In this document: positions 44,645 to 63,598 of the stretch, in pieces
Layout of the letters: each line of letters opens with the position of its first letter
Numbering within the stretch: the first letter of the stretch is position 1
Origin: Alphaproteobacteria bacterium
GTDB taxonomy: Bacteria > Pseudomonadota > Alphaproteobacteria > UBA2966
Length of the DNA stretch: 64,000 nt
NCBI GenBank assembly: GCA_021296255.1
Contig: JAGWAU010000010.1
Coordinates: 2,880-66,879 of the forward strand
Direction of reading: 5' to 3'
Translations under genes and position numbers: made by a program
Notes under the pieces: generated by a model
Database searches by the model: none
Seen by the model: the letters and a program-made list of their open reading frames with translations, nothing else
Told to the model about the DNA's origin: nothing

Positions 44645-45351
44645 TTCGTCGCCCCGACAGCCACGGCGCTCCCTTGCGGCCGCGCGGCGGTACCGCCGAG
44701 CCATCGGTGGAAACGGCCCGGCACACCGGCGTCCGTCAGGAATTCCTGCGCGCAGGTACGGGTGGGTTCACGCATCAAGAGATCAAGGTCATCCGACGTA
44801 TCGACATCAAGGGCGAGATTGGGCAGCTCGATCATGAGCGGCGAGATTCCGGCCTCGCGCGCGGCATCGAGGTGCGGATAGAAGCTATTCCTACCGAATC
44901 TCAAGGTCACGCATCCCGGGGGCGACAGAACGACGCAATTCGAGCCCCGATGGTCTCGCGCCGGGACGATCGTCATCGCAGGCGCGTCGCCATGTGCCGC
45001 TACCACGGACCGAACGTCGCGCGGCAGAACCAGGGGCACGTCACCGGGGACGGTCAGGACATCCTTTACGCCCTCGTCCTTCAAGACTCGGTTCGCCGAC
45101 ACGACGGCAACCGTTTGCCCTTCGTTCCGCGGCTCCGTGAAGATCCGTGCTCCGAGGCCGGTGCACAACTCCTGGGCTTCCGCATCGCGCGTGATCACCG
45201 CGACTCCTTCGAGTTCCGAAACCGCGAGGAGGGTTCGCAGCACGTCCTCGGCCATGATCCTCGCCAGAGCGCGACGTTCGGACGGACTCAGGATGCGTGA
45301 CAGGCGCTCCTTGGCATTCGTGAAGTCCTTGATGGGAACTACAGCCCACAT
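44641..45351 (-). CDS. cofC: Phospholactate/phosphoenolpyruvate guanylyltransferase (CofC/FbiD)
   Basis: A 236-residue nucleotidyltransferase. The N-terminal MWAVVPIKDFTNAKERLS and GDVPLVLPRD metal motif mark CofC/FbiD, which activates phospholactate, PEP or 3-phosphoglycerate with GTP for F420 synthesis. DHRGSNCVVLSPP and the RFGRNSF loop agree. Which three-carbon substrate is used cannot be told. It lies nine bp after cofD and overlaps fbiC by four bases. Confidence 0.92.
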   Translation of the reverse strand: MWAVVPIKDFTNAKERLSRILSPSERRALARIMAEDVLRTLLAVSELEGVAVITRDAEAQELCTGLGARIFTEPRNEGQTVAVVSANRVLKDEGVKDVLTVPGDVPLVLPRDVRSVVAAHGDAPAMTIVPARDHRGSNCVVLSPPGCVTLRFGRNSFYPHLDAAREAGISPLMIELPNLALDVDTSDDLDLLMREPTRTCAQEFLTDAGVPGRFHRWLGGTAARPQGSAVAVGATK

Positions 45352-45360
45352 GATCGAACG

Positions 45361-46377
45361 CTATCGGGAAGCACGGCCACCGCCACTCGGCCTTGGTATT
45401 TGATCACAGAATTCAAGCACGTCGCGGGCGAGCATAACCCGATCATCGAGAGAGTCCATCATCGTGTTCGTGGTCAACGCGTCGATTCCCAATGCCTTCA
45501 CCCGCGAGGTCAATTCCGCGTCCGCCGTGTCGAGAACGAAACCGTCGACGAAGTCCTCATAATGGAGTGCGATGGCCACCGGCGAGACTTCGACATCCAA
45601 TTCGCGCATCATTTTTGCCGTGGGGCCCTTGATCGAGTCCCCCCCGACGATTGGGGTCACCGCGACAACGGGCGCGCGGCACATGCGCAACGCCCCGCGA
45701 ATTCCCGGAACGGCGAGTATAGGATCAATGCTGACGAACGGGTTGGACGGTGCCACGATCACCGCACGCAACCCTTCGACGGCAAGGGCATCCAAAAGCT
45801 CGGCACTAGCTGCCGCGGTCTCCGCGCCGTCATACTCGAACCTCCGGACTACGGGTTGGCAGCGGTCACGCACGAAGTAGTGCTGGAAAGGCAGCCGGCT
45901 TTCGATCGTCTCGACAACCGTAGAGACCGGATCGTCGCTCATGGGCAGAATCCGCGCCGCCACACCGAGGCGCCGGCAGACGTCGCGTGTGATGGAGCTC
46001 AAGCGCTCGCCAGCGGCGAGACGCCGCGTCCGCGCCACATGCATGGCGAGATCCTTGTCGCCCAGGAAAAACCAAGTGTCCTCGCCGAAAGCCTCGATCG
46101 CCTCCATGAAGCTCCCCGACTCCCCTGCCCGGCCCCATCCGGTGTCGGGGTTGTCGAGGCCCGAAAGTGTGTAGACGAGCGTGTCGATGTCCGGACATAC
46201 CCGGAGGCCCAGATAATCGAAATCGTCACCGGTGTTTGCCACGATCGTGAGAGCCTCAGAATTCACGAAATGTGACAGGCCGAGCACGAGTTTGGCCCCT
46301 CCGACGCCGCCAGAGAGGACGACGACCGGCGCGGAGTCCGGCGGACGATTCCGGGCGGGCGTCCGTCCAGCCGTCAC
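45361..46377 (-). CDS. cofD: 2-phospho-L-lactate transferase (CofD/FbiA)
   Basis: A 338-residue CofD. VVVLSGGVGGAKLVLGL is the nucleotide loop near the N terminus, followed by VANTGDDFDYLGLRVCPDIDT and the later APSNPFVSIDPILAV. It joins the activated three-carbon unit to FO to give F420-0 or dehydro-F420-0. The GTG at 46377 overlaps the cofE stop as GTGA; the open frame further upstream is inside cofE and is not coding. Confidence 0.94.
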   Translation of the reverse strand: MTAGRTPARNRPPDSAPVVVLSGGVGGAKLVLGLSHFVNSEALTIVANTGDDFDYLGLRVCPDIDTLVYTLSGLDNPDTGWGRAGESGSFMEAIEAFGEDTWFFLGDKDLAMHVARTRRLAAGERLSSITRDVCRRLGVAARILPMSDDPVSTVVETIESRLPFQHYFVRDRCQPVVRRFEYDGAETAAASAELLDALAVEGLRAVIVAPSNPFVSIDPILAVPGIRGALRMCRAPVVAVTPIVGGDSIKGPTAKMMRELDVEVSPVAIALHYEDFVDGFVLDTADAELTSRVKALGIDALTTNTMMDSLDDRVMLARDVLEFCDQIPRPSGGGRASR

Positions 46378-47144
46378 CGGAACAGGTCTTCCTGGGAATC
46401 CCGAATGAGCGCGCCGGCATCCGTCGGCGAGCCGGAAAAGGTCATTCCGCGGACGACGACAAATGGCGTTCCCTCGTCGGCCTGCCCTTGCAGAAGGGAG
46501 GCTGCAGAGGCGATTTCGTCCGCCAAGCCAATCTGCGTCACCTCCAAGGGACGTCCGAAGAGATCTTCCCGACCACGGATGTCCATCAGGGCTGGCAGCC
46601 CAGAGGACCCGAGAGCCACGCCCGTCGTGCCATTTCGCCACGCGCGGCCGAGACTGTCGTTCATGACGACCGCGACGGTCGCTCCACCGAGATCATGCAG
46701 CCCCTGCCGGATGCGTTCGCAACTCGCGTTGGGATCCTCGGGCAGGAGGAGGACCCTTTCGCCCTCCTTCTCCGGTCCCACGTTGGAGCGGTCGATGCCA
46801 GCGTTGGCGAGGACAAATCCCAATCGATGCACGACGATCAGGACCCCTTGGCGATAACGCAAAACACGATCGCTCTCCGACAGGATCAGCTCTACGAGTC
46901 GGGCGTCCTTGTCGGTTTCCCGTGCCAGCCCGAGCGCCTTTTCCGAGGGCGTCACTTCGTCAAGCACGAAAAACCGGTTCTCGGATTTGGAGACGACTTT
47001 CTGAGCGATAACGACGACATCGCCGTCCCGCAAGGCCTCGTTCGCGTGTGCAATACCTTCCGCGATCAGAGCAGCGATGTCGTCGCCGGGCTCCACAAGG
47101 GGAATGCCCGGCAAAGCGAACAGACTGAGAGAGAGTGGCGCCAC
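46374..47144 (-). CDS. cofE: Coenzyme F420-0:L-glutamate ligase (CofE)
   Basis: A 256-residue CofE, which adds the glutamate tail to F420-0 with GTP. ALPGIPLVEPGDD at the start, VVIAQKVVSKSENR, and NDSLGRAWRNGTTGVALGSSG are conserved. The nitroreductase-like C-terminal domain of mycobacterial FbiB is absent. GTG 47144 is preferred; a TTG at 47162 directly after the npdG stop is the alternative. It overlaps cofD by four bases. Confidence 0.92.
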   Translation of the reverse strand: MAPLSLSLFALPGIPLVEPGDDIAALIAEGIAHANEALRDGDVVVIAQKVVSKSENRFFVLDEVTPSEKALGLARETDKDARLVELILSESDRVLRYRQGVLIVVHRLGFVLANAGIDRSNVGPEKEGERVLLLPEDPNASCERIRQGLHDLGGATVAVVMNDSLGRAWRNGTTGVALGSSGLPALMDIRGREDLFGRPLEVTQIGLADEIASAASLLQGQADEGTPFVVVRGMTFSGSPTDAGALIRDSQEDLFR

Positions 47145-47162
47145 GTGGCTGCGACCCCGCAA

Positions 47163-47846
47163 CTATTGATCGGCGTCGCCACGGGACTCGCCGGTAATCC
47201 GAATTCCGGCACCGTCGATCTCGTAGGTTCTGTTCAGGAAGATCAGCACCGATGTCAGGGCCTCGGCCACCGCCGAGTTGTCCACGGGGCCCGCGTGCCA
47301 GCCCTTCATGCCGGCGGCTTCGACGAGTTCGAGCACCGTTTCACGTGCCGCCTCGTCGTTGCCGCTGACCAGGACGTCGCAATCGATATCGTGCTCAATA
47401 TTGGCCAAGTGGCCGGCCGCGACATTTTGAAAGGCAGAGACCACGCGTACATCCTCGCCGAGAAACTCCTGCGATCTGACCGCCGCAGACCCTTCGGGCG
47501 GCAACTGCACCCGGCTCACCTTGGGCGGCACGAGAGGTACCGTGACATCCACGAAAATCTTGCCTTGAACCGCGTCCTTGATGGTCTTGAGCATGACATG
47601 GTGATTGGCGAATGGAACCGTGAGGACGACGATATCGGCCGCCGTCGCCGCCTCTACGTTTTCCAGTCCGCGCACCGTACCCGAGAACCCAAACTCCGTC
47701 AGTTTGTTGGCCGCGTCCTCCGCCTTCTCCCTGGCACGAGAACCGATGGTAATGTCGTAACCTGCGTCGAGCCAACGGACGGCGAGACCCCATCCGAGGT
47801 CGCCAGTGCCGCCGAGAATCGCGAGGGTGGGTCCGGTATCAGTCAT
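47163..47846 (-). CDS. npdG: NADPH-dependent F420 reductase (NpdG/Fno)
   Basis: A 227-residue F420H2:NADP+ oxidoreductase. The NADP site is LAILGGTGDLGWGLAVRW followed by GSRAREKAED. VVLTVPFANHHVM and the SAFQNVAAGHL stretch are family-typical. It should reduce F420 with NADPH for the nearby LLM and PPOX enzymes. The ATG at 47846 has GGAGACGA just upstream. It is first in the F420 operon and divergent from the LLM gene at 48048, with about 200 bp of regulatory DNA between. Confidence 0.92.
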   Translation of the reverse strand: MTDTGPTLAILGGTGDLGWGLAVRWLDAGYDITIGSRAREKAEDAANKLTEFGFSGTVRGLENVEAATAADIVVLTVPFANHHVMLKTIKDAVQGKIFVDVTVPLVPPKVSRVQLPPEGSAAVRSQEFLGEDVRVVSAFQNVAAGHLANIEHDIDCDVLVSGNDEAARETVLELVEAAGMKGWHAGPVDNSAVAEALTSVLIFLNRTYEIDGAGIRITGESRGDADQ

Positions 47847-48047
47847 TTCGTCTCCATGCCCAGTCAGCGGGGTGCCGATTTCTACCATCCCGGCACGGTC
47901 TGGAATACACCGGCGACACCCCCCGATTCATCGGGGTCGGACTTGGAGTCCAACCCCATGTTACAGTCATGGCCAATGGGGCGTGACCTTCCTTTAACTA
48001 ATGGGGGACGGACGATTCGGAATGCTCACGGTTTGAAGGACAACGAC

Positions 48048-49031
48048 ATGGAATTCGGCTTTTACCTCCCGACGCGTGGACCACTCAGCACACCCGAGCA
48101 CATGACGGCGCTGGCCGCCAAGGGCGAGGAGCTGGGCTACGGCTACGTCGCCGTGACTGATCACGTCGTCGTGCCGCGCAGTGTGGAGTCCAAATATCCT
48201 TATACCGACCAGGGCGACTGGCCCGCGGCACGGTTCGGTGATTTCCACGACCAATTGACGGTTCTCGCCTATCTCGCCGGACAAACCAGCACTGCCCGCC
48301 TCCTGACTTCGGTCATGGTCGCGCCACACCGGGCACCGGTGCTCACGGCAAAGATGTTGTCCACGATCGATGTCTTGTCGCATGGCCGTCTTACGGTTGG
48401 CGTCGGCGCGGGTTGGTGCAAGGAGGAGTTCGAGGCAGTGGGGGCGCCACCGCATGCCGAGCGCGGCAAGGTCACCGACGAATATGTCCGCGTGTTCAGG
48501 GAACTCTGGAGCGCCGATAACCCGGAATTCCACGGCGATTACGCGGACTTCGCCGATATCACGTGCCTCCCCCGTCCCATCCAGCGGCCGGGTCCGCCGA
48601 TCTGGGTGGGAGGCGAAAGCAAGCCCGCCCTGCGTCGTGTCGTCCGGGTCGGCGACGGCTGGTTTCCCATCGCTCACAATCCGAACTTCCCCCTCGACAC
48701 CCGTGAACGCTACGAGACGGCCCTGGGCGATTTGGGACGTCTCGCCGAAGATGCGGGAAGGAGCATAGACGGTATCGAACTCGCCTTTTTCATCATGCGG
48801 TGGGGATCGGAACCCGGCGATCCCTTGCCGCCGATGGGCACGAATGATCCGGCGACGGACGGGAACCGCCGCCTCATGACGGGGTCGGCGGAGCAGATGG
48901 CGGCGGACGTCAAGGCGTTGGAACGACTCGGCGTCAAGGCGCTCACGCTGAGCTTCGAACGCTCGGGCCTTTCCGAAACCATGGATTGCATGGAAGCGTT
49001 CACCCGCGACATCATCCCGCTTGCAGCCTAG
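48048..49031 (+). CDS. LLM-class F420-dependent oxidoreductase (TIGR03619-like, copy 1)
   Basis: A 327-residue luciferase-like TIM-barrel oxidoreductase. MEFGFYLPTRGPLSTPEHM, TDHVVVP and VGVGAGWCKEEFEAVG are shared with the copies at 49078 and 52636. The RGPL opening and TDH are typical of F420-binding LLM proteins. The ATG at 48048 has GAAGGA upstream. Divergent placement from npdG supports use of F420H2. The substrate is unknown. Confidence 0.88.
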   Translation: MEFGFYLPTRGPLSTPEHMTALAAKGEELGYGYVAVTDHVVVPRSVESKYPYTDQGDWPAARFGDFHDQLTVLAYLAGQTSTARLLTSVMVAPHRAPVLTAKMLSTIDVLSHGRLTVGVGAGWCKEEFEAVGAPPHAERGKVTDEYVRVFRELWSADNPEFHGDYADFADITCLPRPIQRPGPPIWVGGESKPALRRVVRVGDGWFPIAHNPNFPLDTRERYETALGDLGRLAEDAGRSIDGIELAFFIMRWGSEPGDPLPPMGTNDPATDGNRRLMTGSAEQMAADVKALERLGVKALTLSFERSGLSETMDCMEAFTRDIIPLAA

Positions 49032-49077: not shown

Positions 49078-50061
49078 ATGAAGATCGGGTTCTATGTTCC
49101 CACGCGGGGACCATTGAGCACGCCAGAGAATATGTCGGCCCTAGCGAGGAAGGGCGAGTCGCTTGGATTCGATTTCCTTTCCATGACGGATCATCTGGTC
49201 GTGCCGCGAAGCCGAATCTCGGACTATCCCTACACGAGAGACGGTAACTGGCTGCCGGGACGCTTCGGGGATTTCGTCGATCAACTCACGGCCATGGCGT
49301 TCGTCGCCGGCCAGACGGAAACCGTCCGGCTGCTGACCTCGGTGCTCGTGCTGCCGCACCGGTCGCCTGTTCCGACCGCGAAAGCCCTCGCGAGTCTCGA
49401 CTATCTGTCCGGAGGGCGTCTCTCCGTCGGTTGCGGAGCCGGATGGATGAAGGAGGAATTCGAGGCGGTGGGCGCCCCGCCACACCCCGAGCGCGGGAGG
49501 GTCGCAGACGAATACATCCTAGTCTTCAAAGAGCTCTGGACCAACGACGATCCGGAATTTCACGGAGACTACGCGGATTTTTCCAACATTACGTTCGAGC
49601 CGAAACCCGTTCAGAAACCACATCCGCCGATCCTGATCGGCGGCGAGAGCCCGCCGGCCATGCGCCGTGCCGCGACACTGGGCGATGGCTGGATCCCCAT
49701 GGCCCATAACACCAGGGTCCCCCTCGATACGTTCGAGCGATTGAAGACGTATGTAAGCAAACTCCATGGACTCGCCGAAGATGCCGATCGCGACTCGACG
49801 TCGCTCCGGGTCACATGGTTCGTGCTGTGGTGGGGGACGGAACCGGGCGAGCCACTCCAACCGATGGAAGCCGACGAACCGTTCCCGGGTGGAGACCGGC
49901 GGCTCCTGAGCGGCAGCGCGCGGCAGATGAAGGACGACATGGCGGCAATGGAAGAAATCGGTGTCCAGTCCATCATCGTCAACTTCGAGCGGGAGACCAT
50001 CGAGGCCTCGCTCGAAGGCATGGAGGCGTACGCGGCGGAGTTCATCCGGAAAGGCACCTGA
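49078..50061 (+). CDS. LLM-class F420-dependent oxidoreductase (copy 2)
   Basis: A 327-residue paralogue of the upstream gene. It has nearly the same N terminus (MKIGFYVPTRGPLSTPENM), SMTDHLVVPRS, and the GCGAGWMKEEFEAVGAPPHPERG loop. The ATG at 49078 has GGAGAG upstream and lies 46 bp after copy 1. The two are best seen as a tandem duplication with separate substrates. Confidence 0.88.
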   Translation: MKIGFYVPTRGPLSTPENMSALARKGESLGFDFLSMTDHLVVPRSRISDYPYTRDGNWLPGRFGDFVDQLTAMAFVAGQTETVRLLTSVLVLPHRSPVPTAKALASLDYLSGGRLSVGCGAGWMKEEFEAVGAPPHPERGRVADEYILVFKELWTNDDPEFHGDYADFSNITFEPKPVQKPHPPILIGGESPPAMRRAATLGDGWIPMAHNTRVPLDTFERLKTYVSKLHGLAEDADRDSTSLRVTWFVLWWGTEPGEPLQPMEADEPFPGGDRRLLSGSARQMKDDMAAMEEIGVQSIIVNFERETIEASLEGMEAYAAEFIRKGT

Positions 50062-52635: not shown

Positions 52636-53583
52636 ATGCAGTTTGGTTTCGGACTTCCGACTCGGGGCCCACTCGCCAACCTCGACGGCGTGCGCACCAT
52701 GGCGACGCGGGGTGAAGAGCTGGGCTACGGCTATTTGACCGTTCCGGATCATCTCGTCATTCCGCGGACGTACGACCATGAGTATCCCTATTCCGACTCC
52801 GGCGAAATGCCGGGTGGAGGCTCGGGGGATTGTCTCGACCAACTGACCGTCATGACCTTCGCGGCGGCGATTACGACCAAACCACGGCTTCTCACTTCGG
52901 TGCTGGTCGTTCCCCACCGGCCAGCGGTCTTGACGGCGAAGATGCTCTCGACCATCGACGTCCTGTCGAACGGACGTATCAGCGTCGGCGTCGGTGCCGG
53001 CTGGATGCGCGAGGAATTCGAGGCGCTCGGTGCGCCGCCCCATGCCGAACGGGGCAAGGTCACCAACGAATACATCCGGGCGTTCAAGGAACTGTGGACC
53101 GAGGACAGTCCGTCCATGCAGGGAGATTACGTCAATTTCTCGGATGTCATCTTCGAACCCAAGCCCGTCCAGAAGCCGCACCCGCCGATCTTCGTCGGGG
53201 GCGAGAGCGGCCGGGCCCTGCACCGCACGGTCGAGTTGGGTGACGCCTGGTACCCCATCGGGGCGAACCCCAGGAACCGCATGGACACGCGCGGGCGCTA
53301 CAAGGCCAACGTCGAAAGGCTCCATGCGCTCGCGGCTGAGAAGGGTCGTGATCCATCCGCCATCACGCTGGCTTTCTGGGCCAATTGGGCCGGCGTGACC
53401 GAAACCGAGACCGACGACGGCAGCCGTCGCTTGTTCATGGGCTCGCCGGAGGAAATCGCCAGCGACATCGAATTCTTCCGCGAGATGAACGTCAGCGTGC
53501 TCAACTTCAATTTTCTCAGCCCGAGCCTGAGCGAAACGCTCGAGAAGATGGACCAATACGCGAAGGACATCCTCGCCCTGTAA
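52636..53583 (+). CDS. LLM-class F420-dependent oxidoreductase (copy 3)
   Basis: A 315-residue paralogue of the genes at 48048 and 49078. MQFGFGLPTRGPLANLDGVR, TVPDHLVIPRT and GVGAGWMREEFEALG are conserved. The ATG at 52636 has AAGGAGA upstream. It is divergent from the PPOX gene. The C terminus is slightly shorter than in the other two. Confidence 0.88.
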   Translation: MQFGFGLPTRGPLANLDGVRTMATRGEELGYGYLTVPDHLVIPRTYDHEYPYSDSGEMPGGGSGDCLDQLTVMTFAAAITTKPRLLTSVLVVPHRPAVLTAKMLSTIDVLSNGRISVGVGAGWMREEFEALGAPPHAERGKVTNEYIRAFKELWTEDSPSMQGDYVNFSDVIFEPKPVQKPHPPIFVGGESGRALHRTVELGDAWYPIGANPRNRMDTRGRYKANVERLHALAAEKGRDPSAITLAFWANWAGVTETETDDGSRRLFMGSPEEIASDIEFFREMNVSVLNFNFLSPSLSETLEKMDQYAKDILAL

Positions 53584-53695: not shown

Positions 53696-54373
53696 CTACT
53701 GGTTCGCGGGAACGTAGTCTTCGAGGTAGCCGACCACCTCGCTCGCGGGGACGACGTCGGCATACTTCTTGGCCATATCGTAAAGGTTCTGGAAATGCGG
53801 GCTCTCGTGCACATCTGCGACGCACTCCTCGGGCACGATGGTGCGGTAACCGTGCTGCACGCTGTCGAGCACGGTTGAGCGGATGCACCCGGAGGTCGAA
53901 CCGCCGGTGACGATCACCGTGTCGATGCCGTACCAGACGCAGAGCGACGGCAAGTGCGTCTGGAAGAACGCCGACGCCCCCACCTTTCGGTAGATCACGT
54001 CACGGCTCCCGTCGACGGTCAGGCGGGGATCGAGCTCGGCCATCTTCGAGCCGATCTTTATGTTCTGCAGGGCGGTTGGGCTGTCGCTACGGGTGCCCCG
54101 CACGCCGCAGGCGTGTCGGTTTTCCATGTCCGCCACATTCCACCACACGACCGGTAATCCCTTTGACCGCGCAATCCCGCAAATCTCGTTGATGTAGTCC
54201 ATCTGCTTGGGATCGGTGGAATAGGCGGAGTCGTATTCCTCTTCGAGCGTGAAGGCGCTCTGCACGTCGACGTTGACGATCATGGGCTTGCGGCCAAAGC
54301 CGAATCTGCGCCGTGGCGGCGCCGACTTCAGATCCTCATACATCTGCCGGGCTGTCTTATTGGAGAGTTCCAT
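53696..54373 (-). CDS. Isochorismatase-family cysteine hydrolase (copy 1)
   Basis: A 225-residue amidase-type protein. The triad D36-K130-C163 is visible (VNVDVQ, YRKVGAS, TSGCIRSTVLD). The relationship to N-carbamoylsarcosine amidase and maleamate amidase is by fold and motif; the N-terminal helical segment (about residues 1-25) is longer than in simple nicotinamidases. It is the outermost gene of a four-gene minus-strand block ordered amidase-deacetylase-deacetylase-amidase. Confidence 0.88.
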   Translation of the reverse strand: MELSNKTARQMYEDLKSAPPRRRFGFGRKPMIVNVDVQSAFTLEEEYDSAYSTDPKQMDYINEICGIARSKGLPVVWWNVADMENRHACGVRGTRSDSPTALQNIKIGSKMAELDPRLTVDGSRDVIYRKVGASAFFQTHLPSLCVWYGIDTVIVTGGSTSGCIRSTVLDSVQHGYRTIVPEECVADVHESPHFQNLYDMAKKYADVVPASEVVGYLEDYVPANQ

Positions 54374-54418
54374 GGCTCCGCCTTTCCTGGGAATCCGACG
54401 TTGTTCGTGAATGGTCGG

Positions 54419-55342
54419 CTATGCTTGTTCCTTGCAGGTGTCCAGAATTTCCGCCCCCGTGGCGGGCCAGACGCCGTCATGCCCGAGAATGTAGTCCAAG
54501 GCCTCTTTGAGATACCGGGTCCGGTAAGGGTGTCCCATCACCCACGGATGCAGGGTGATCGACAGAATCCGCCCGCCGTATTGCCCGGCCTCGGCGTAAA
54601 GCACGTCGAACTGATCCTTGATCTGCTGCACGAATTCCGCCTCACGGTGGTGGAAGCGGAGCAGCACCTCCCGGTCGTCGAGTTCCACCGTGTGAGGCAT
54701 GGCGAAGAGATTGCCGTCCTTCGTCCTGAAGGGGTACGGCATGTCGTCATTGCACCAATCGCACTGGTACTCGATGCCGTTTGCGGCCAGAAGGTCGGGG
54801 GTGTTGTCCGATTCGGACTTGCCGATCGACAACCAGCCCCGGATCGGCTGGCCCGTCGTCTTGCGCAACGAGTCGACGCAACCCTTGACCCACCCGGCCT
54901 CCAGCTTCTCGTCCATACCCCCGTAGTGCATACAGCCCATGTGCACGCCGTGGGCCATGACCTCCCACCCCCGCTTGTTGATCTCTTCGACGATGATGGG
55001 ATAGCGCTCGCCAACCGCCGAATTCACTGCCACTGAGGCCTTGATTCCGAATTCATCGAAAAGCTTGAAAAAACGGAAAATACCGACCCGCAAGCTGTAG
55101 TCGCGATGGGAGTAATTCCGGTAGTCGGGATAGGGCCTGTTGAAGCCGCCGGGCGGCGGCACGGGCCCTCTCTCCATGTCCATCGGGAACCATTGCAGCA
55201 GCGGCGTGACCCACAAGGCCACGCGCGCGTCGTTCGGCCATGTAACGGGCTTCTTGCGGAACAGGATTTCCCAGTCGTAGCGATCGTGGTCCATCCCGTA
55301 GCCGCGGATCGGGTACCTGAGATAATCGTCGGGCAGGCTCAT
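54419..55342 (-). CDS. Polysaccharide deacetylase/allantoinase-type hydrolase (copy 1)
   Basis: A 307-residue NodB-fold protein of the PuuE/peptidoglycan-deacetylase-like group. NYSHRDYSLRVGIFRFFKLF precedes the catalytic face; EVMAHGVHMG and GWLSIGKSESDNT follow; LHPWVMGHPYR is near the end. There is no signal peptide, so a cytoplasmic small-molecule substrate such as a cyclic ureide or imide is more likely than cell wall. The ATG at 55342 lies six bp after copy 2. Confidence 0.85.
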   Translation of the reverse strand: MSLPDDYLRYPIRGYGMDHDRYDWEILFRKKPVTWPNDARVALWVTPLLQWFPMDMERGPVPPPGGFNRPYPDYRNYSHRDYSLRVGIFRFFKLFDEFGIKASVAVNSAVGERYPIIVEEINKRGWEVMAHGVHMGCMHYGGMDEKLEAGWVKGCVDSLRKTTGQPIRGWLSIGKSESDNTPDLLAANGIEYQCDWCNDDMPYPFRTKDGNLFAMPHTVELDDREVLLRFHHREAEFVQQIKDQFDVLYAEAGQYGGRILSITLHPWVMGHPYRTRYLKEALDYILGHDGVWPATGAEILDTCKEQA

Positions 55343-55348
55343 GGGGCG

Positions 55349-56266
55349 TCACTCCGCGGTGGCGGCCGATTGCGCCGCGACGACGTTGTCGTAATGGTGT
55401 TCGAAGTAGTACTCGGCGATCTCGCGCCCCGTCGTCACCCAGACGTCGTCGTGACTGGTGACGTATTCGAGCGCCTCGGCGAACGGCCCGACACGGTGCG
55501 GCTGGCCGACAAGGAACGGATGCAGCGGAATACACATGACGGTGCCATTCTCCGCCCCTTCCTCGTAGAGCTGATCGAACTGCCGCTTGATCACCTCGGT
55601 GTACTGACGCGGCGGGCTTGAGTTGATCTGGTGGTAGACCACGATATCGTTCATCTCCAGCGAATAGGGAATACTGATCAGCCGGCCTCTCTTGACCTTG
55701 ACGGGCTGCGGCTGGTCGTCGTGGAAGAGGTCGCACGTGTAGAGGACTTCGTACTCGGCCAGCAGGTCGAGCGTCTGCTCGGTATTGCTCAGCGCTGGTG
55801 ACAGCCAGCCGGCCAGCTTCTGGCCGGACGCCTTCTTGATGGTCTCGATCACGTCCTCGATGAGTTCACGGTGCTGCGCCTCGCTCATGCCGTACTGGTA
55901 GCGGGTGTTGTAGACGCCGTGGGAGAACAGTTCCCAGTCGCGCTCGACGCAGGCCTCGATGATCTCGGGATGATGGTCGCAAACGGCCACGTTGAGGGAT
56001 ACGCTGCCGCGCACGCCGTAGCGGTCCATCGCCTCCATCATGCGCCATACGCCCGCCCGGTTTCCGTAATCGCGGTGGGAGTAGAAGACGACGTCCGGCG
56101 CCGGCCTCGACATGTCCTGACGCGTCGGATTGGGCGGTGGATAGGTTTCGTAGAACTCGATATTGGGCGCGACCCAGAAGGCGACGCGGGCGCCGTTCGG
56201 CCAAGTGATCTTCGGCCGGTTGTTGTACGGCGAATACTCGTAGATGCCGGGATCGCTGAGCGTCAC
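55349..56266 (-). CDS. Polysaccharide deacetylase/allantoinase-type hydrolase (copy 2)
   Basis: A 305-residue paralogue of the adjacent gene. SHRDYGNRAGVWRMMEAMDR, ELFSHGVYNTR and GWLSPALSNTEQT align with the copy-1 motifs, and PLHPFLVGQPHR ends the domain. The start is GTG at 56266 with GGGAGGAG upstream. It follows isochorismatase copy 2 by ten bp. No signal peptide is present. Confidence 0.85.
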   Translation of the reverse strand: MTLSDPGIYEYSPYNNRPKITWPNGARVAFWVAPNIEFYETYPPPNPTRQDMSRPAPDVVFYSHRDYGNRAGVWRMMEAMDRYGVRGSVSLNVAVCDHHPEIIEACVERDWELFSHGVYNTRYQYGMSEAQHRELIEDVIETIKKASGQKLAGWLSPALSNTEQTLDLLAEYEVLYTCDLFHDDQPQPVKVKRGRLISIPYSLEMNDIVVYHQINSSPPRQYTEVIKRQFDQLYEEGAENGTVMCIPLHPFLVGQPHRVGPFAEALEYVTSHDDVWVTTGREIAEYYFEHHYDNVVAAQSAATAE

Positions 56267-56276
56267 GGTCTCCTCC

Positions 56277-56951
56277 CTAGTCGTTCGCTGGAACGTATTC
56301 GTTGAGATGGTCGATCACCTCCCGGGCAGGTATCACGTCAGCATACTTTGCCGCCATATCGTAGAGGTTGGCGAAATGCGGGCTCTCGTGCCGGTCCGAG
56401 GTGCATTCCTCGGGAACCACGGTGCGATAGCCGCTCTGCAGACTGTCCACCACGGTCGCGCGCACGCAGCCGGAGGTCGACCCGCCGGTAACGATCATGG
56501 TGTCGGTCCGGTACCACACGCAGAGTGACGGCAAGTGCGTCTGGAAGAACGCCGACGCACCCCGTTTGTTGAAGACGATATCGTTGTCGCGGTCGACATG
56601 GCAGCGATCGTCGAGCTCCGCCTTGCGCGAGCCGACCTTAATGTTCTGCAAGGCATCGTCGTGCTGGTTCCGGGTCCCCCAGACGCCGCAGTCGTCGGCG
56701 TTCTCCATGTAGGCCACGTAGGTCCACACGACGGGCAGGCTCTTCGACCGGGCGATGTCGGAGATCTCGTTGATGTAGTCGATCTGCTTCGGGTGCGTCG
56801 AATAGGCGGACGTGTAGTCGTCCTCCAGCGTGAAGGACTTCTGAACGTCGACATTGACGACCATCGGCCGCCTGCCGAAACCGAAACGCGGCTTCGGGTT
56901 GGCCTTGAGCTCCTCCCACATCTGACGAGCGGTCTTGTCCGAGAGTTCCAT
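56277..56951 (-). CDS. Isochorismatase-family cysteine hydrolase (copy 2)
   Basis: A 224-residue protein strongly similar to copy 1, from MELSDKTARQMWEELK through GASAFFQTHLPSLCVWY to TGGSTSGCVRATVVDS. The triad is D35-K129-C162. The ATG at 56951 has GGAAGGGG upstream. It heads the four-gene block and is divergent from the PEP-mutase-type gene at 57079. Confidence 0.88.
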   Translation of the reverse strand: MELSDKTARQMWEELKANPKPRFGFGRRPMVVNVDVQKSFTLEDDYTSAYSTHPKQIDYINEISDIARSKSLPVVWTYVAYMENADDCGVWGTRNQHDDALQNIKVGSRKAELDDRCHVDRDNDIVFNKRGASAFFQTHLPSLCVWYRTDTMIVTGGSTSGCVRATVVDSLQSGYRTVVPEECTSDRHESPHFANLYDMAAKYADVIPAREVIDHLNEYVPAND

Positions 56952-57078
56952 GGTCGCCCCTTCCTGTTCGTACCGCACGTCGCGATCACGTTGCGCCTTG
57001 CGGTAACGTTACCGGGGCCAGACGGGGGTGGTAAAGTCGCTCCACGTTACCGGAACACGCTTTCAGGAGCCCTAGACC

Positions 57079-57969
57079 GTGACAGACAGCGCTACTGCGG
57101 CCTTCCGCCGGTTGCTGGCCGGACCCGACGTCATCATGGCGCCGGGCGCGCCGGACCCTTTTTACGCCAGACTCGTTGCCCGCACAGGGTTTCCGGCCGT
57201 CTACATGACTGGCGCGGGCACGACGGCCGTACGCCTCGGCATGCCGGATATCGGCCTCCTAACGATGACGGAAATGGTTGACAACGCGGCACGCATCGTG
57301 GATGCCTCGGGACTGCCCGTCATCGCCGATTGCGACAACGGCTACGGCGGACCGCTGAACGTCAGACGCGCGATTCAAAGCTATGAGCGGGCCGGGGTCG
57401 CCGCCGTTCACATGGAAGACCAGATCATTCCGAAGCGTTGCGGCCACTTCAGTGGAAAGCAGCTCGTTTCGGCGGAAGAGATGGTGACCAAGATCAAGGC
57501 GGCGGTCGACGCGAAGGCGGATTCCGATTTCGTCGTCATCGCCCGCACTGACGCCATCGCGGTGGAGGGGTTTGATGCGGCGATGGACCGCGCCGCCATG
57601 TATGAAGAGGCTGGCGCCGACATGCTCTTCGTCGAAGCACCGACGGACACCCGGCAACTGGCGAAGATAGGGAGCAACTTCAGCGTTCCGCACGTCGCCA
57701 ACCTGGCGTCGAGCCGCAGGACACCGCTGCTGCCCGCCGAGGAGCTTGGGGAGCTCGGGTTCAAGCTCGTGATCTATCCCGGCTTGCTCCTGCTTTCGAC
57801 GATCCGAGCGGCACTGAGTTGCCTCGATCATCTCAAGGAGAAGCGGACCTGGGCCGGCATGGAGGCGGACCTGCCCACCTTCGACGAGATGCTCACCCTC
57901 ATGGGGATGGAGGAGGTGGAATCACTCGAGGAACGTTATGCGCTCCCCGAACAAGGAGGAACGCGATGA
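57079..57969 (+). CDS. Isocitrate lyase/PEP mutase family protein (copy 2)
   Basis: A 296-residue TIM-barrel lyase or mutase. DCDNGYGGPLNVRRAI is the metal site and IIPKRCGHFSGK the catalytic loop with Cys. The start is GTG at 57079 after AGGAG. It overlaps the following LLM gene by four bases (ATGA), so the two work in one transcript. A C-C lyase at the end of a ring-opening pathway is plausible. Confidence 0.88.
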   Translation: MTDSATAAFRRLLAGPDVIMAPGAPDPFYARLVARTGFPAVYMTGAGTTAVRLGMPDIGLLTMTEMVDNAARIVDASGLPVIADCDNGYGGPLNVRRAIQSYERAGVAAVHMEDQIIPKRCGHFSGKQLVSAEEMVTKIKAAVDAKADSDFVVIARTDAIAVEGFDAAMDRAAMYEEAGADMLFVEAPTDTRQLAKIGSNFSVPHVANLASSRRTPLLPAEELGELGFKLVIYPGLLLLSTIRAALSCLDHLKEKRTWAGMEADLPTFDEMLTLMGMEEVESLEERYALPEQGGTR

Positions 57970-58967
57970 AAGTCGGCGTCTTCCTGGGCAGCCAGCACCC
58001 GCCCGAGGCGGACATCCGTCGGGAGTTCGAGCACATGGTCGAACAGACGCGCGCCATCCGCGACGCCGGTTTCGATTCGCTGTGGCTGGGACAGCACTAC
58101 CTCACCTATCCCAACCAGTTCCTGCAGACCACGCCCCTGCTCGCCCGCCTGGCGGCGGAGACCGGCGATATGGCCGTCGGCACCAACATGATCTTGCTGC
58201 CGCTGCACAACGTCGTCGATATCGCCGAACAGTATGCGACGATGGATGTCATCTCGGGGGGGCGCCTGATCCTGGGTGTCGGGCTCGGGTACCGCGACAT
58301 CGAATTCCAGGGGCTCGCTGCCGACCGCGAGACGCGGGTGCCGCGGTTCGAGGAGCAGATCACCGCCCTGAAGCTGCTCTGGGAAGAGGACGACGCCACT
58401 TTCGAGGGCGAGCACGTCACGTTCAAAAACCTCTCGATCCGCCCGAAGCCGCTGCAGAAGCCCAGGCCGGAGATCTGGATCGGCGCCACCGCGGATCCCG
58501 CCATCAAGCGTGCCGCGCGGATGGGCGACGCCTGGGCCGGGACCTCGGTCACGACGTTCGGCGAGATCAAGCGGCAGTTGCCCATCTACCGTCAGGCCCG
58601 CGAGGAGGCCGGCCTGCCGCCGCCCCAAGACATCGCCCGCAACGTCGAGGTCTTCGTCGCCGAGACTCGCGAGAAGGCCTGGGAAGAAGGCGGACAGTAC
58701 ATCGCCAGAAAATTCGAGACCTACTTTTCCTGGGGCATGGACAAGAACATCGGCGACGACGGGAACGCGGAGATGTCCCTCGAAGACCTTGCGGAAGACA
58801 GGTTCATCGTCGGCGATCCCGAGGACTGCATCCGCGGCTGCCTCGAACATCGGGATGCGGGCATCACCCATCTGCAGATCCGCCTCAACTTCCCCGGCAT
58901 CCCCAACGAGTCGGCGATCACGGCGATCGAGTTGTTCGGCAAGGAAGTCCTGCCGCACCTGAGATAG
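57966..58967 (+). CDS. LLM-class flavin-dependent oxidoreductase
   Basis: A 333-residue luciferase-like protein of a different subgroup from the F420-type copies. MKVGVFLGSQHPPEADIRRE, LWLGQHYLTYPNQFLQ and GVGLGYRDIEFQGL resemble alkane/pyrimidine-type monooxygenases (LadA/RutA-like). The ATG at 57966 overlaps the upstream stop and has AAGGAGG before it. FMNH2 or F420H2 could be the cofactor. Confidence 0.87.
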   Translation: MKVGVFLGSQHPPEADIRREFEHMVEQTRAIRDAGFDSLWLGQHYLTYPNQFLQTTPLLARLAAETGDMAVGTNMILLPLHNVVDIAEQYATMDVISGGRLILGVGLGYRDIEFQGLAADRETRVPRFEEQITALKLLWEEDDATFEGEHVTFKNLSIRPKPLQKPRPEIWIGATADPAIKRAARMGDAWAGTSVTTFGEIKRQLPIYRQAREEAGLPPPQDIARNVEVFVAETREKAWEEGGQYIARKFETYFSWGMDKNIGDDGNAEMSLEDLAEDRFIVGDPEDCIRGCLEHRDAGITHLQIRLNFPGIPNESAITAIELFGKEVLPHLR

Positions 58968-58973
58968 GAGACT

Positions 58974-59027
58974 CTCACCCGGCCCGGGATGTCGCCCTTT
59001 GGGCACCCGGGATAGAGCCAGGGTGAG
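58974..59027. repeat. REP-like hairpin between convergent genes
   Basis: CTCACCC (58974-58980) pairs with GGGTGAG (59021-59027), and inside this CCCGGG occurs on both arms. The sequence resembles dispersed extragenic palindromes found between genes in many proteobacteria. It lies exactly between two convergent stops and could end transcription from both sides. Confidence 0.55.
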
Positions 59028-59036
59028 GGCGCGCAC

Positions 59037-59798
59037 CTATCCCAGCCACTCCTTCCCAGCCTTGAGCATGGCGTGGATCATGTCCGGATACGGGTCGAGG
59101 GGCTTGGGATAGGCCTTGCGGCTGTGCGTGAGTTTGAGGTCGAGGACCGACTCGACGAGCTTGTAGGTGAGCGGACCCGGATTGACGACGGGGATCGGCA
59201 AGGTCTCGGCCAGATACTCGGCCGCCTGATGCATGGTCGTCGAACCCAGGCAAACTACGTCGGCGCCCGCCGCCATCGCCTCCTCGCAAGCGGCCCTCAT
59301 CTTCGGAAAGACCGTGTCCTCCTTGCCGTCGAGCAGGCTAGCGTAGTCCGGCGGCACGTCGAAGTTCACCACCGCGGCGCAGAAGTCCTCCAGCCCGAGC
59401 GCGCGGATCATCTTGGTGGTTCGCGCGACGGCGTAGTCCCACTGACAGATGATGGAGAACTTGTTGCCGAGCGTCAGGCAGAACAGCATCGCTGCCTTCC
59501 CCGGCGCGATGACCGGAATATCGAGCACCGACCTGAGGGCATCGAGACCCGAATCGCTCATGGTATCGATGCAAACGGCGTCGTAGCCCTCGTCCTGCGC
59601 GCTCATCCCGGCCTCGAAGATCGCCATGTCCATGAGCACGAAATCGTGGGGACTCATGTAGCTCTTCGGGCCCGCCGTGACACCGCGGAAGTCGAATTCG
59701 ACCTCCGGGCCCAGACGGACATGGTCGAGTTGGGCGCGCCGATTGGCGATGCCGCTTTCGTCGAGCGCAAACGGCACCAGAACCAAAGCCTTGGCCAT
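59037..59798 (-). CDS. Asp/Glu racemase-family-like protein (copy 1) without the usual cysteines
   Basis: A 253-residue protein with the two-lobed Asp/Glu/hydantoin-racemase fold signature (DSGLDALRSVLDIPVIAPG; GADVVCLGSTTM; VVNPGPLTYKL). At the two places where racemases have catalytic Cys, T79 and S186 stand, and a Cys is found three residues earlier in each lobe (C76, C183). The ATG at 59798 has GGAAAGGAG upstream. It forms a pair with the gene at 59841. Maleate isomerase and arylmalonate decarboxylase share the fold, so the reaction is open. Confidence 0.8.
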   Translation of the reverse strand: MAKALVLVPFALDESGIANRRAQLDHVRLGPEVEFDFRGVTAGPKSYMSPHDFVLMDMAIFEAGMSAQDEGYDAVCIDTMSDSGLDALRSVLDIPVIAPGKAAMLFCLTLGNKFSIICQWDYAVARTTKMIRALGLEDFCAAVVNFDVPPDYASLLDGKEDTVFPKMRAACEEAMAAGADVVCLGSTTMHQAAEYLAETLPIPVVNPGPLTYKLVESVLDLKLTHSRKAYPKPLDPYPDMIHAMLKAGKEWLG

Positions 59799-59840
59799 GG
59801 CTTTTCTCCTTTCCCGGAAGGCCGGCCCCGGAGGACGGTC

Positions 59841-60620
59841 CTATGGGTTCTTCTGTACCTCGACCGCGCCGTCCAGCATGGCGCGAAGCGTCTCGTCGAC
59901 CCGCACGATAGGCGGCTTATAGTACTGACGGCTATGCGAGAGACCCAACCCGAGCACGGCTTCGGCAAGCTTGTAGGACACCGGACCCGGATTGATGATC
60001 GGCACGGGTATCTTGCCGGATAGATGCACGTGAGCCTGGTGCATCGAGGTCGATCCGAGACAGATGACGTCGGCGCCACGGTCGTTGATCAGAGCCCAGC
60101 AGCCCTCCTCAAGCTGCCCGAAGGTCTCCTCCTCCTTGCCGCTGAGCAGGTTCCGGTTGTCCACACCCGCGTCGATGCTGTGCACGCCCACGAACTTGTG
60201 GCCGATACCAAGCTCTTCCAGAGTCTTTTTGTAGAGCCCCGACCAGCGGTCCCACATCGCCAACACGCCGAACTTGTCCCCGAGCAGCATGGCCAGCAGG
60301 AACGACGCCCGCCCCGGACCGATGACGGGAATATCGAGAATGGTCCGCAGCGCGGCAACGCCGGAGTCGCTGACGGTGTCGATGCACACCACGTCGTAAC
60401 CATCCTCCTGGGCGCTGAGGCCCGCTTCGAGAATGACGATGTCGCCGATGCTCCAGTCATAGGGGCTCACCAGGTTGCCGCCCGCCGCGCGGACCGGCCG
60501 GTAGTCGAATTCGATGTCGGGGCCGAAATCGAGCGAGGCGTGCTGCTGCTGCCGGAACCCGAGCTGTTCCTCCGTCATCGGGAACGGAACAATGACCAAG
60601 ACTCTCTTCTTTCTCGCCAC
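59841..60620 (-). CDS. Asp/Glu racemase-family-like protein (copy 2) without the usual cysteines
   Basis: A 259-residue paralogue of the adjacent gene. VVCIDTVSDSGVAALRTILD and GADVICLGSTSMHQA show the same Thr/Ser substitution and the same upstream shift of Cys in both lobes. The GTG at 60620 is chosen for the AGGGAGG before it; an ATG at 60641 lies seven codons further upstream. It is first in the two-gene unit and divergent from the FAD oxidoreductase at 60811. Confidence 0.8.
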   Translation of the reverse strand: MARKKRVLVIVPFPMTEEQLGFRQQQHASLDFGPDIEFDYRPVRAAGGNLVSPYDWSIGDIVILEAGLSAQEDGYDVVCIDTVSDSGVAALRTILDIPVIGPGRASFLLAMLLGDKFGVLAMWDRWSGLYKKTLEELGIGHKFVGVHSIDAGVDNRNLLSGKEEETFGQLEEGCWALINDRGADVICLGSTSMHQAHVHLSGKIPVPIINPGPVSYKLAEAVLGLGLSHSRQYYKPPIVRVDETLRAMLDGAVEVQKNP

Positions 60621-60810
60621 GGGGACCTCCCTGTCCTGCATCGCCACGCGTATAGCGCGTGGCGCCAGCACGGAATTACAGGGTACCCGGCCAAGGGAGT
60701 CAACGCGGCCACCATATCGGAGTCGGCCGGTGACTGGTTGGGTGGGAAACGTGCGCGTTATAGTGATCCTGGAATTCGACGTGCGACCAGCCGATGGAAA
60801 GGACACAGCG

Positions 60811-62208
60811 ATGGGAATCATCAGATCCGGTGACCGGTTGTTCGACATCTCCGTTCCCGTCGCCGTGATCGGAGCCGGCGCCTGCGGCTGCAGCGCGGCG
60901 CTGGCCGCGAACGAGCGCGGCGCCGGCGTTCTGATGATCGAGCGCGACGATCCGCCGGCGGGCAGCACTTCCCTGTCCGGCGGACAGATTCCCGCCTCCG
61001 GCACCAGACTCCAGAAGGCGGCGGGCATCGACGACACGCCGGAGGATTTCGCCGAGGAGATCCTCGAGAAGGCGCGGCATCAAACCGACGCCGAGATGGC
61101 GCTCGCCGTCTCCCGTGGCTCCACCGTGACCGTGGATTGGCTCGTCGACACCTACGGCGCGCCGCTGGAAGTCTTGACCGATTTCTTCTACCCCGGCCAC
61201 AAGAAGCACCGCATGCACGGCACGCCCAACCGAGATGGCGCCGAATTGCTGGCCTGCCTCCTCGAGGCGGTCTCGCGCGAAGGGATCGATATGCTGACGG
61301 CTGCGGTGGCCACCGACCTCTACGCCGACGAGGACGGCAAGGTCACGGGCGTGCGCATCCGGCGCCCGGACGGGAGCCGGGAGGACGTCGGTTGCGGTGC
61401 CCTGGTCTTGGCCTGTAACGGCTTCGGCGGTAATCCTGAGATGGTCAGGGAGTACATCCCGGAGATCGCCGATGCTCTCTACTTCGGTCACGCGGGCAAC
61501 AAGGGAGACGCGGTGAAGTGGGGTTTGGAGCTCGGTGCCGACATCGCCGACATGGGCAGCTACCAGGGCCACGGCGCCGTCGCGACGCCTCATAACACGC
61601 ACATCGGCTGGCCCTCGATCACCGAGGGCGGGATCATGGTCAACACGGATGGTAAGCGCTTCAGCCACGAGAACCGGGGCTATTCCGAACAAGCCATCGA
61701 GGTCATCCGCCAGCCCGGCAACTTCGCCTGGACGATCTTCAACGAGACCGCCCACAACGTCGCCATGCAGTTCAACCACCAGCGGGAGTCGGTGGAGGCC
61801 GGCGCGGTCCGCGTGGCGGAAACCCTCGACCAACTGGTAGAGATCACCGAGCTGCCCGAAGATGCGCTGGCCGAGACCATCGCCGAGGTCAACGATATCC
61901 TGGCGGGAAGGAAGACCGACCCCTTCGGCCGGGACTTCGGCGGCAAGGCGCCGTTGGAACCTCCGTACTACACGGTCAAGGTGACCGGAGCTCTCTTCCA
62001 CACCCAGGGCGGCCTGGCCATCGACCCCGAAGCACGGGTCCTGCGCAGGGGCACCAGGCAGCCGCTGCCCAATCTGTTCGCAGGGGGCGGCGCCGCACGC
62101 GGCCTCACCGGCCCGTCTTGCTGGGGCTACACCTCCGGTGCCGGCCTGATGACCGCGACCACGCTCGGCCGACTCGGCGGCGAAGGCGCCGCCGCGATCG
62201 TCTCCTGA
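60811..62208 (+). CDS. FAD-dependent oxidoreductase (fumarate-reductase/ketosteroid-dehydrogenase type, copy 1)
   Basis: A 465-residue FAD-binding-2 family flavoprotein. VAVIGAGACGCSAALAANER is the FAD site; SLSGGQIPASGTR follows it; HTQGGLAIDPEARV and GPSCWGYTSGAGLMTATTLG near the C terminus close the FAD site. It has no signal peptide, unlike periplasmic fumarate reductases. The ATG at 60811 has GGAAAGGA upstream. It probably oxidises or reduces a C=C bond of a pathway acid. Confidence 0.88.
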   Translation: MGIIRSGDRLFDISVPVAVIGAGACGCSAALAANERGAGVLMIERDDPPAGSTSLSGGQIPASGTRLQKAAGIDDTPEDFAEEILEKARHQTDAEMALAVSRGSTVTVDWLVDTYGAPLEVLTDFFYPGHKKHRMHGTPNRDGAELLACLLEAVSREGIDMLTAAVATDLYADEDGKVTGVRIRRPDGSREDVGCGALVLACNGFGGNPEMVREYIPEIADALYFGHAGNKGDAVKWGLELGADIADMGSYQGHGAVATPHNTHIGWPSITEGGIMVNTDGKRFSHENRGYSEQAIEVIRQPGNFAWTIFNETAHNVAMQFNHQRESVEAGAVRVAETLDQLVEITELPEDALAETIAEVNDILAGRKTDPFGRDFGGKAPLEPPYYTVKVTGALFHTQGGLAIDPEARVLRRGTRQPLPNLFAGGGAARGLTGPSCWGYTSGAGLMTATTLGRLGGEGAAAIVS

Positions 62209-62221
62209 CCCGGAGACCGCC

Positions 62222-63598
62222 ATGAGCTGGGACCTCGAAACGGACGTCGCCGTCGTCGGCGGTGGCGGCGCCGGCCTCATGGCAGCCTCTACCGCGGCGT
62301 CAGTGGACGACGGTGTCGACGTGATCCTGCTCGAAAAGGATTCCGACGACCCCTGCACGTCCGTCATCACCAGCAGTTTCATTCCGGCGGCGGGCACCCG
62401 GCTGCAGCGAGCCGCCGGCATCGAGGACTCACCGGAGGTCATGGCCGGCGATATCCTCAGAAAGAACGGCCACAAGAGTGATCAAGATGTGACGCTGGCG
62501 TTATGCCGCCGCTCCGCCGAGATGATCCACTGGTTCATCGACGGACTCGGTGTCGACCTCGAGTTCGCGCCCGAGGTCGCGTGGTTCGGACATACCAACA
62601 AGCGAATGCACAGCCATCCGACGCGCATCGGCGTGCCCATCGTCGACCGCATGCGCGAATACTTCACGTCGCTCGACAACGCCACCTATCACGATAAGAC
62701 ACCCGGAACGGGGTTGGTCGTTGATGACGCGGGTACGATCCTGGGCGTCACGGCGGAACGAAGCGGCACCGGGATTCGGATCGCGGCCAGGAAGGTCGTG
62801 CTCACCACCGGCGGGTTCAATGCCAACCGAGAGATGCTGGCCCAATACATCCCCGATATGGCCGACGCCCCCAACATCGGCTCGAAGTCCAATACAGGCG
62901 AAGGCATCCTCTGGGGCATGGAAGCCGGGGCCGCGACGGATCGGATGACGGGTTATCAGGGCCGCGACTGTATCTTCGAGGACGGCACCCGCCTGACACC
63001 CGGCGTCATCAATGAGGGCGGCATCGCCGTCAACAAGACGGGGCGGAGGTTCGTCAACGAGGAGCAGGACTACTCGCAACTCGCCGCCGTCTATCGAGGT
63101 CAGCCGGACGGCTTCGCGGTCTTTATCTGGGACGAGCGCATCCAGCGCATGACGGAGAACATGCACGTCATGAAGGAGTCCATGCGCAAGGGCGGTATCG
63201 AGGTCTGCGACAGCGTCGCGAAGATTGCCGGACGGTTCGACCTGCCGACCGAGGTTCTCGAAGCCACCGTCGAGTCCTACAACGATGGCGTGCGGGCGGG
63301 TCGGGACGCCTGGGACAGAAGGAAGCTCGCGGAACCCCTTTCCCCTCCCTACTATGCCTCACGCGTGACGGGCGCCATGGGACATACCCAAGGGGGGCTC
63401 AAAGTGGATACATCGTGCCGCGTCCTGCGCCCGGACGGATCGACGGTTCCCAACCTGTACGCCGGCGGCAACACGATGGTCGGCCTTTCCGGCGACACCG
63501 CCGGCGGCTATACGTCGGGAAACGGCCTGCTGGTCGCCTATACGTCGGGCATGATCATCGGCCGGGACGCCGTGGCGGCCATCAAGGCCGGTTTCTGA
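62222..63598 (+). CDS. FAD-dependent oxidoreductase (copy 2)
   Basis: A 458-residue paralogue of the preceding gene, 13 bp downstream. VAVVGGGGAGLMAASTAASV is the FAD site; SSFIPAAGTRLQRAAGIED matches copy 1; HTQGGLKVDTSCRV and GDTAGGYTSGNGLLVA end the protein. The two may form one enzyme or act on successive intermediates. Confidence 0.88.
   Translation: MSWDLETDVAVVGGGGAGLMAASTAASVDDGVDVILLEKDSDDPCTSVITSSFIPAAGTRLQRAAGIEDSPEVMAGDILRKNGHKSDQDVTLALCRRSAEMIHWFIDGLGVDLEFAPEVAWFGHTNKRMHSHPTRIGVPIVDRMREYFTSLDNATYHDKTPGTGLVVDDAGTILGVTAERSGTGIRIAARKVVLTTGGFNANREMLAQYIPDMADAPNIGSKSNTGEGILWGMEAGAATDRMTGYQGRDCIFEDGTRLTPGVINEGGIAVNKTGRRFVNEEQDYSQLAAVYRGQPDGFAVFIWDERIQRMTENMHVMKESMRKGGIEVCDSVAKIAGRFDLPTEVLEATVESYNDGVRAGRDAWDRRKLAEPLSPPYYASRVTGAMGHTQGGLKVDTSCRVLRPDGSTVPNLYAGGNTMVGLSGDTAGGYTSGNGLLVAYTSGMIIGRDAVAAIKAGF

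Follow-up and report, generated by a model that had tools for sequence, protein, structure and literature searches.

A conserved PuuE-like hydrolase pair in an alphaproteobacterial cluster of paralogous genes: a possible route for cyclic imides

Among described enzymes, the close counterparts of the gene cluster considered here include cyclic imidases. HxnM of Aspergillus nidulans, of the polysaccharide deacetylase family, hydrolyzes the ring of a cyclic imide, and an amidase then acts on the resulting half-amide; HxnM is 64% identical to the imide hydrolase of Pseudomonas putida YZ-26, and both are structural relatives of PuuE and HpPgdA, with HxnM related to Protein Data Bank (PDB) entry 3qbu (PMC9304392). 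PuuE itself is a tetrameric enzyme encoded by a single gene (PMC3084791), and PDB entry 3uao is named as the maleamate amidohydrolase NicF (PMC5806882). Here, a 64,000-nucleotide stretch of DNA (the window), part of contig C53 in an assembly of 4.25 Mb and 136 contigs whose same-genus relatives are alphaproteobacterial metagenome-assembled genomes, carries what may be a variation on this theme. Ten genes fill 53.7-63.6 kb of the window, and two of them, DeaB and DeaA, probably encode a single two-part enzyme rather than two enzymes, with DeaB as the catalytic and DeaA as a degenerate subunit. That the whole cluster serves the breakdown of small cyclic imides, or of closely similar ring amides, and is headed by a heteromeric ring opener has in our estimation about an even chance of being correct. 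The catabolic role for ring amides or imides put forward in a first-pass annotation of this DNA is supported by gene context.

The family assignments and gene order, like the pair ages and active-site patterns described below, are established. The ten genes, four paralogous pairs together with Lyase and LLM2, are as follows.

IsoA, 53696-54373, minus strand: isochorismatase-family amidase, a genus-specific duplicate of IsoB (Pfam PF00857, 88 bits)
DeaA, 54419-55342, minus strand: relative of PuuE (NodB/CE4 fold), its active site degenerate, with Q50 in place of the Glu (Pfam PF01522)
DeaB, 55349-56266, minus strand: PuuE-like, putative cyclic amidohydrolase with E37, H116, H249, D179 and D183 kept (Pfam PF01522)
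IsoB, 56277-56951, minus strand: isochorismatase-family amidase, first gene of the Iso-DeaB-DeaA triad (PF00857, 95 bits)
Lyase, 57079-57969, plus strand: member of the PEP-mutase/isocitrate-lyase superfamily, C-C bond lyase type, with a KRCGH motif (PF13714, 170 bits)
LLM2, 57966-58967, plus strand: LLM-class (F420/FMN) oxidoreductase, its first bases overlapping the stop codon of Lyase (PF00296)
RacA, 59037-59798, minus strand: Asp/Glu/hydantoin-racemase fold, with Thr and Ser where the two catalytic Cys would stand (PF01177)
RacB, 59841-60626, minus strand: Asp/Glu/hydantoin-racemase fold, T84 and S192 at the catalytic Cys positions (PF01177)
FadA, 60811-62208, plus strand: FAD_binding_2 oxidoreductase, flavocytochrome c / ketosteroid dehydrogenase-like (PF00890)
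FadB, 62222-63598, plus strand: another FAD_binding_2 oxidoreductase, not a member of the FadA clade (PF00890)

The first-pass annotation had recognized the eight paired genes, and their locations stand, with paralogy far above chance; Lyase and LLM2, the two unpaired genes between the pairs, went unmentioned there. On the minus strand the transcription order is IsoB, DeaB, DeaA, IsoA, with short gaps between; RacB and RacA, in that order, also lie on the minus strand. The mirror order of the Iso and Dea genes to which that annotation drew attention is present here but seen in this genus only, the arrangement elsewhere being an Iso-DeaB-DeaA triad. Conservation of this triad was followed by a scan with DeaB over 84,980 species, from which the best 80 loci were kept. 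Outside the genus, 76 loci have sequence upstream of DeaB, and in 75 of them an isochorismatase gene precedes it (L090 being the exception). DeaA lies directly after DeaB in all 92 loci in which the contig continues, comprising 87 with a DeaA above the identity threshold, four with more divergent copies (L137-L140) and one cut by the contig end. Among the hosts of the triad are Alpha-, Beta- and Gammaproteobacteria, Acidimicrobiales, Thermomicrobiales and SAR324. Where plasmid copies are annotated, the two Dea genes share 1-4 bases. These ordinary enzyme families apparently form a widespread, undescribed cluster; no open-access paper joining them in one cluster was found. The triad is common in soil, freshwater and marine bacteria, its genes annotated merely as "polysaccharide deacetylase" and "isochorismatase".

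Further PuuE-like genes occur in some of these genomes. A second DeaB-DeaA pair (60% and 47% identical) in the window genome, at C107:6607-8474, is flanked by genes for an MMPL protein and a PadR-RND efflux set, with no isochorismatase, amidase or lyase near it. In the Burkholderiales loci L083, L098, L099, L111, L114, L116, L120, L126, L128, L130, L132 and L134, an additional PuuE-like gene, 46-51% identical to DeaB, is found just after the triad.

Variation in the active sites of the two Dea proteins is one-sided. At the positions of DeaB E37, H116 and H249, the residues are E-H-H in 93/93 DeaB sequences; at the same positions E-H-H is found in 13/87 DeaA sequences, the others having mainly E-N-H (29), Q-H-H (23) or Q-N-N (10). 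By parsimony the three DeaA positions have undergone 7, 12 and 4 changes, so that alteration of this active site has been repeated. Divergent relatives from Sphingomonas, Salipiger, Rhizobium, Terrarubrum and Arthrobacter again have E-H-H in DeaB and a DeaA altered in other ways; in the DeaA on plasmid pLDW-10 of Arthrobacter crystallopoietes, two of these positions are occupied by R and G. DeaA is read as a subunit because these positions are lost while the gene is always kept beside DeaB. The first-pass annotation had suggested heteromeric enzymes for the pairs in general, a suggestion indirectly supported for the Dea pair only, by its strict adjacency, its short overlaps and the loss of active-site residues on one side.

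Structural comparison places both proteins near PuuE. The top fold match of an AlphaFold model of DeaA (pLDDT 86) is PuuE 3cl6, with a TM-score of 0.80, the nearest PDB entries to DeaB are PuuE 1z7a/3cl6, and both proteins also match 3qbu. The NodB-derived fold is shared with PuuE, and DeaB retains the SHG His, the LH His and the DxxxD region; unlike PuuE, however, two paralogues are always adjacent, one of them degenerate, and the cut-off of the PuuE equivalog TIGR03212 (424.6 bits) is reached by neither DeaB (141.3) nor DeaA (117.6). HxnM and the YZ-26 enzyme belong to the same PuuE/HpPgdA fold group and likewise pair a ring opener with an amidase, although both are single-subunit enzymes as described, the ring opened by HxnM is six-membered, and they are likened to the Dea proteins by description rather than by direct sequence comparison.

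The amidase of the triad is equally conserved in its catalytic residues, with the Asp-Lys-Cys triad intact in 90/90 Iso sequences. Its best PDB matches are 4l07/4l08, which we take to be the maleamate amidase Ami of Pseudomonas putida S16, and N-carbamoylsarcosine amidohydrolase; NicF also matches, and the curated cut-offs for RutB and biuret hydrolase are far from reached (31.5 versus 378 and 27-28 versus 370 bits). Iso is related to an enzyme, NicF, that converts maleamate to maleate and ammonia. It shares with NicF and Ami the isochorismatase fold, the catalytic triad and a tie to N-heterocycle catabolism, but is linked to a ring-opening hydrolase pair where those are linked to 2,5-dihydroxypyridine dioxygenase genes.

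Genes found around the triad suggest that a cis-dicarboxylate is formed. Partners were counted in 57 wide loci (at least 12 kb), with eight loci containing other PuuE-like genes serving as controls. The lyase family is present in 32/57 wide loci, LeuC-type genes in 24/57, FadA-type in 18/57 and Rac in 11/57, with at least one of these in 41/57; Lyase, LeuC, FadA and Rac are absent from all eight controls. The triad stands beside genes for a two-subunit isopropylmalate dehydratase in Burkholderia plantarii, Sphingomonas JE1, Sphingobium TomTYG65 and Acidiphilium plasmids, and those plasmids mostly also carry Lyase and/or an FAD enzyme. One stretch in Rhizobium rhizoryzae holds the triad, LeuC, LeuD, a branched-chain-type ABC transporter, Lyase, FadA, RacB, RacA, an MmgE/PrpD protein and GntR. 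The nearest PDB entries to Lyase are methylisocitrate lyase and the petal death protein, with 2,3-dimethylmalate lyase also matched; its score against the methylisocitrate lyase family TIGR02317 (PrpB), 283 bits, is below the cut-off of 354. The KxCGH catalytic loop is present (PKRCGH), its Cys occurring in 44/44 sequences.

From these relationships we infer the reactions, the DeaA/DeaB complex and the class of substrate. The Dea and Iso families together lead to a proposed sequence from imide to half-amide to dicarboxylate and ammonia, in which the DeaA/DeaB heteromer would hydrolyze the ring at the DeaB active site, DeaA having a structural or specificity role, and the Iso amidase would release ammonia from the half-amide to give a cis-dicarboxylate, much as maleamate gives maleate. 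In related clusters, a LeuCD-type hydratase would then add water to the cis-dicarboxylate, and a Lyase of the methylisocitrate/dimethylmalate type would cleave the hydrated product to pyruvate and a short acid, with FadA presumably adjusting saturation and RacA/RacB serving as a conserved accessory. In the window genus, where the amidase has been duplicated and FadB and LLM enzymes added, the lower pathway may differ or may borrow an unlinked hydratase; it is uncertain because no hydratase is linked and IsoA, FadB and LLM2 are extra. Parallel branches, the other explanation offered for the pairs in the first-pass annotation, could fit these genus-specific extras only (IsoA, FadB and the LLM genes), not the remaining pairs.

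In the nicotinate fermentation of Eubacterium barkeri, a 2,3-dimethylmaleate hydratase is followed by a dimethylmalate lyase. The related clusters similarly set an aconitase-type two-subunit hydratase beside a lyase of the PEP-mutase/isocitrate lyase family, differing in their imide-hydrolase front end and, in the window genus, in the lack of a linked hydratase. Since hydration followed by lyase cleavage matches the 2,3-dimethylmaleate route, the downstream genes make a maleimide or succinimide with an alkyl substituent a better candidate than a ureide, without proving it. Maleimides derived from heme or chlorophyll are an obvious candidate, although a distinctly doubtful one. Riboflavin catabolism was rejected as a source of substrate; the route set out in PMC12746152 takes a different course.

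A stronger version of this proposal, in which DeaA is an obligate degenerate partner and the pair represents a new family of heteromeric imide hydrolases heading a widespread, undescribed alkyl-imide pathway (with maleimides from heme and chlorophyll breakdown as possible substrates) that ends in methylisocitrate-lyase-type cleavage, must be considered rather unlikely. If the main proposal is right, many genomes would gain a concrete reaction for the triad genes, a homotetrameric enzyme family would be seen to have become heteromeric, one partner being a pseudo-subunit, and a bacterial cyclic-imide route could be tested in the cultured Rhizobium rhizoryzae, Microvirga brassicacearum and Pusillimonas noertemannii.

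Several observations weigh against a DeaA/DeaB heteromer at the head of an imide pathway. H116 and H249 are shared with PuuE, but the Glu position lies outside the aligned parts of PuuE. DeaA may be active in some lineages, because a minority of its sequences keep E-H-H, as does the Variovorax DeaA, an exception to the asymmetry. Mirror-tree correlations (Spearman) are 0.56 for DeaA-DeaB versus 0.64 for DeaA-Iso, so the two Dea proteins are not clearly more correlated with each other. Sixteen of the 57 wide loci lack all four partners (Lyase, LeuC, FadA and Rac), and no cluster-type LeuCD was found in the window genus, which has elsewhere one LeuC-like gene (60% identical to a cluster LeuC) and aconitases.

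Some of these points bear on the possibility, unlikely but of appreciable weight, that DeaA and DeaB are two separate enzymes acting on consecutive or parallel ring substrates. Their 37% identity leaves room for different specificities, and retention of E-H-H by part of the DeaA proteins fits two enzymes; against this, most DeaA sequences lack at least one of the positions, lost several times independently, yet the gene adjoins DeaB in all testable loci.

Comparable, minor weight can be given to a pathway for cyclic ureides resembling hydantoin or allantoin, in which Rac would epimerize the ring, the PuuE-like proteins open it to a carbamoyl acid and Iso serve as an N-carbamoyl amidohydrolase. 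The proximity of DeaA and DeaB to PuuE allantoinase agrees with this, as do the Iso match to N-carbamoylsarcosine amidohydrolase and the RacB model, for which the allantoin-racemase fold is nearest (TM 0.80). RacA and RacB share this fold with the allantoin and hydantoin racemases (3qvk, 5lfd) but carry Thr and Ser in place of both catalytic Cys, as do 23/25 Rac sequences in all (the RacA motifs are CIDTMSDSG and LGSTTMH), and are therefore not ordinary two-Cys racemases. The PuuE cut-off is far off for both Dea proteins, and a linked LeuCD hydratase and methylisocitrate-type lyase suit a dicarboxylate product, not an amino acid. An invariant Cys is found in Rac three residues before the first catalytic Cys position. 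With the canonical Cys positions lost, assignment of Rac as a maleate isomerase, hydantoin racemase or arylmalonate decarboxylase of the canonical kind was rejected. RacB is more widespread than RacA, and its orthologues adjoin triads.

It is very unlikely that the Dea pair takes over from a molybdenum hydroxylase and hydrolyzes a lactam or another N-heterocycle, LeuCD and lyase being only one of several downstream routes. On plasmid pLDW-10 (L149, 6231-12824), a DeaB-DeaA pair and an asparaginase gene come after Mo-hydroxylase genes, and the window's contig carries a Mo-hydroxylase, an FAD protein and a third PuuE-like gene; these copies, however, are more distant (~40% identity), and the direct substrate of the hydrolase would still be an imide.

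The pairs themselves differ in age. Identity, in each case over at least 90% of length, is 70.5% for Iso, 43% for Rac, 37% for DeaA/DeaB and 36% for FadA/FadB, so that the earlier description of the pairs as diverged fits Rac, Dea and Fad better than the much closer IsoA/IsoB. The six Iso copies of the window genus form one clade (FastTree 0.964, IQ-TREE UFboot 100), no second Iso copy occurs in any non-genus locus examined, and this duplication is private to the genus. DeaA and DeaB form two clades (87 and 93 sequences), each spanning every sampled lineage, and the split is ancient, preceding the divergence of all of them. One member of the Rac tandem of Rhizobium rhizoryzae groups with RacA (support 1.0) and the other with RacB (0.68); the RacA/RacB split is older than the divergence from Rhizobium. 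The FadAs of all the clusters form a clade that leaves FadB out (support 0.76). The best relative of FadB in non-genus loci is 37% identical, and no FadB orthologue was found in clusters of other lineages. Trees had been proposed as a check on co-duplication, expected to give similar depths in all pairs, and the depths instead differ widely; the nearest relatives of Dea, Iso, Rac and FadA nevertheless sit in the same kind of cluster, not in separate ones. Block duplication of an ancestral single-copy cluster, which four paralogous pairs within ten genes would fit, is excluded for practical purposes because the pair ages differ, and other lineages carry one Iso and usually one Fad, yet two Dea.

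FadA-type proteins and FadB have Tyr at the position of the acid Arg of fumarate reductase in 25/25 sequences, and they may be dehydrogenases resembling ketosteroid dehydrogenase; assignment as a fumarate reductase was rejected on this replacement, and the pair scores 252 and 241 bits against the flavocytochrome c family TIGR01813 (cut-off 285). In sister genome G001, FadA is away from the triad, near a module with FAD and PuuE-like genes, whose counterpart on the window's contig lies ~15 kb further on, beside the Mo-hydroxylase. There, to the right of the window at C53:77400-82381, a Mo-hydroxylase large subunit, an FAD_binding_2 protein and a third PuuE-like protein likely form a second N-heterocycle module. 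Just outside the window (C53:69481-73225) are hydantoinase/oxoprolinase A and B genes.

LLM2 scores 165 bits against TIGR03619, whose cut-off is 166.9; in none of the 57 loci compared did an LLM gene lie near the triad, and LLM2 is a genus-specific addition. Other LLM/F420-type oxidoreductases of the window, at 46488-49031 (the C-terminal part), 49078-50061 and 52636-53583, lie near genes for CofC and CofD of coenzyme F420 biosynthesis (44641-46287), here in an alphaproteobacterium.

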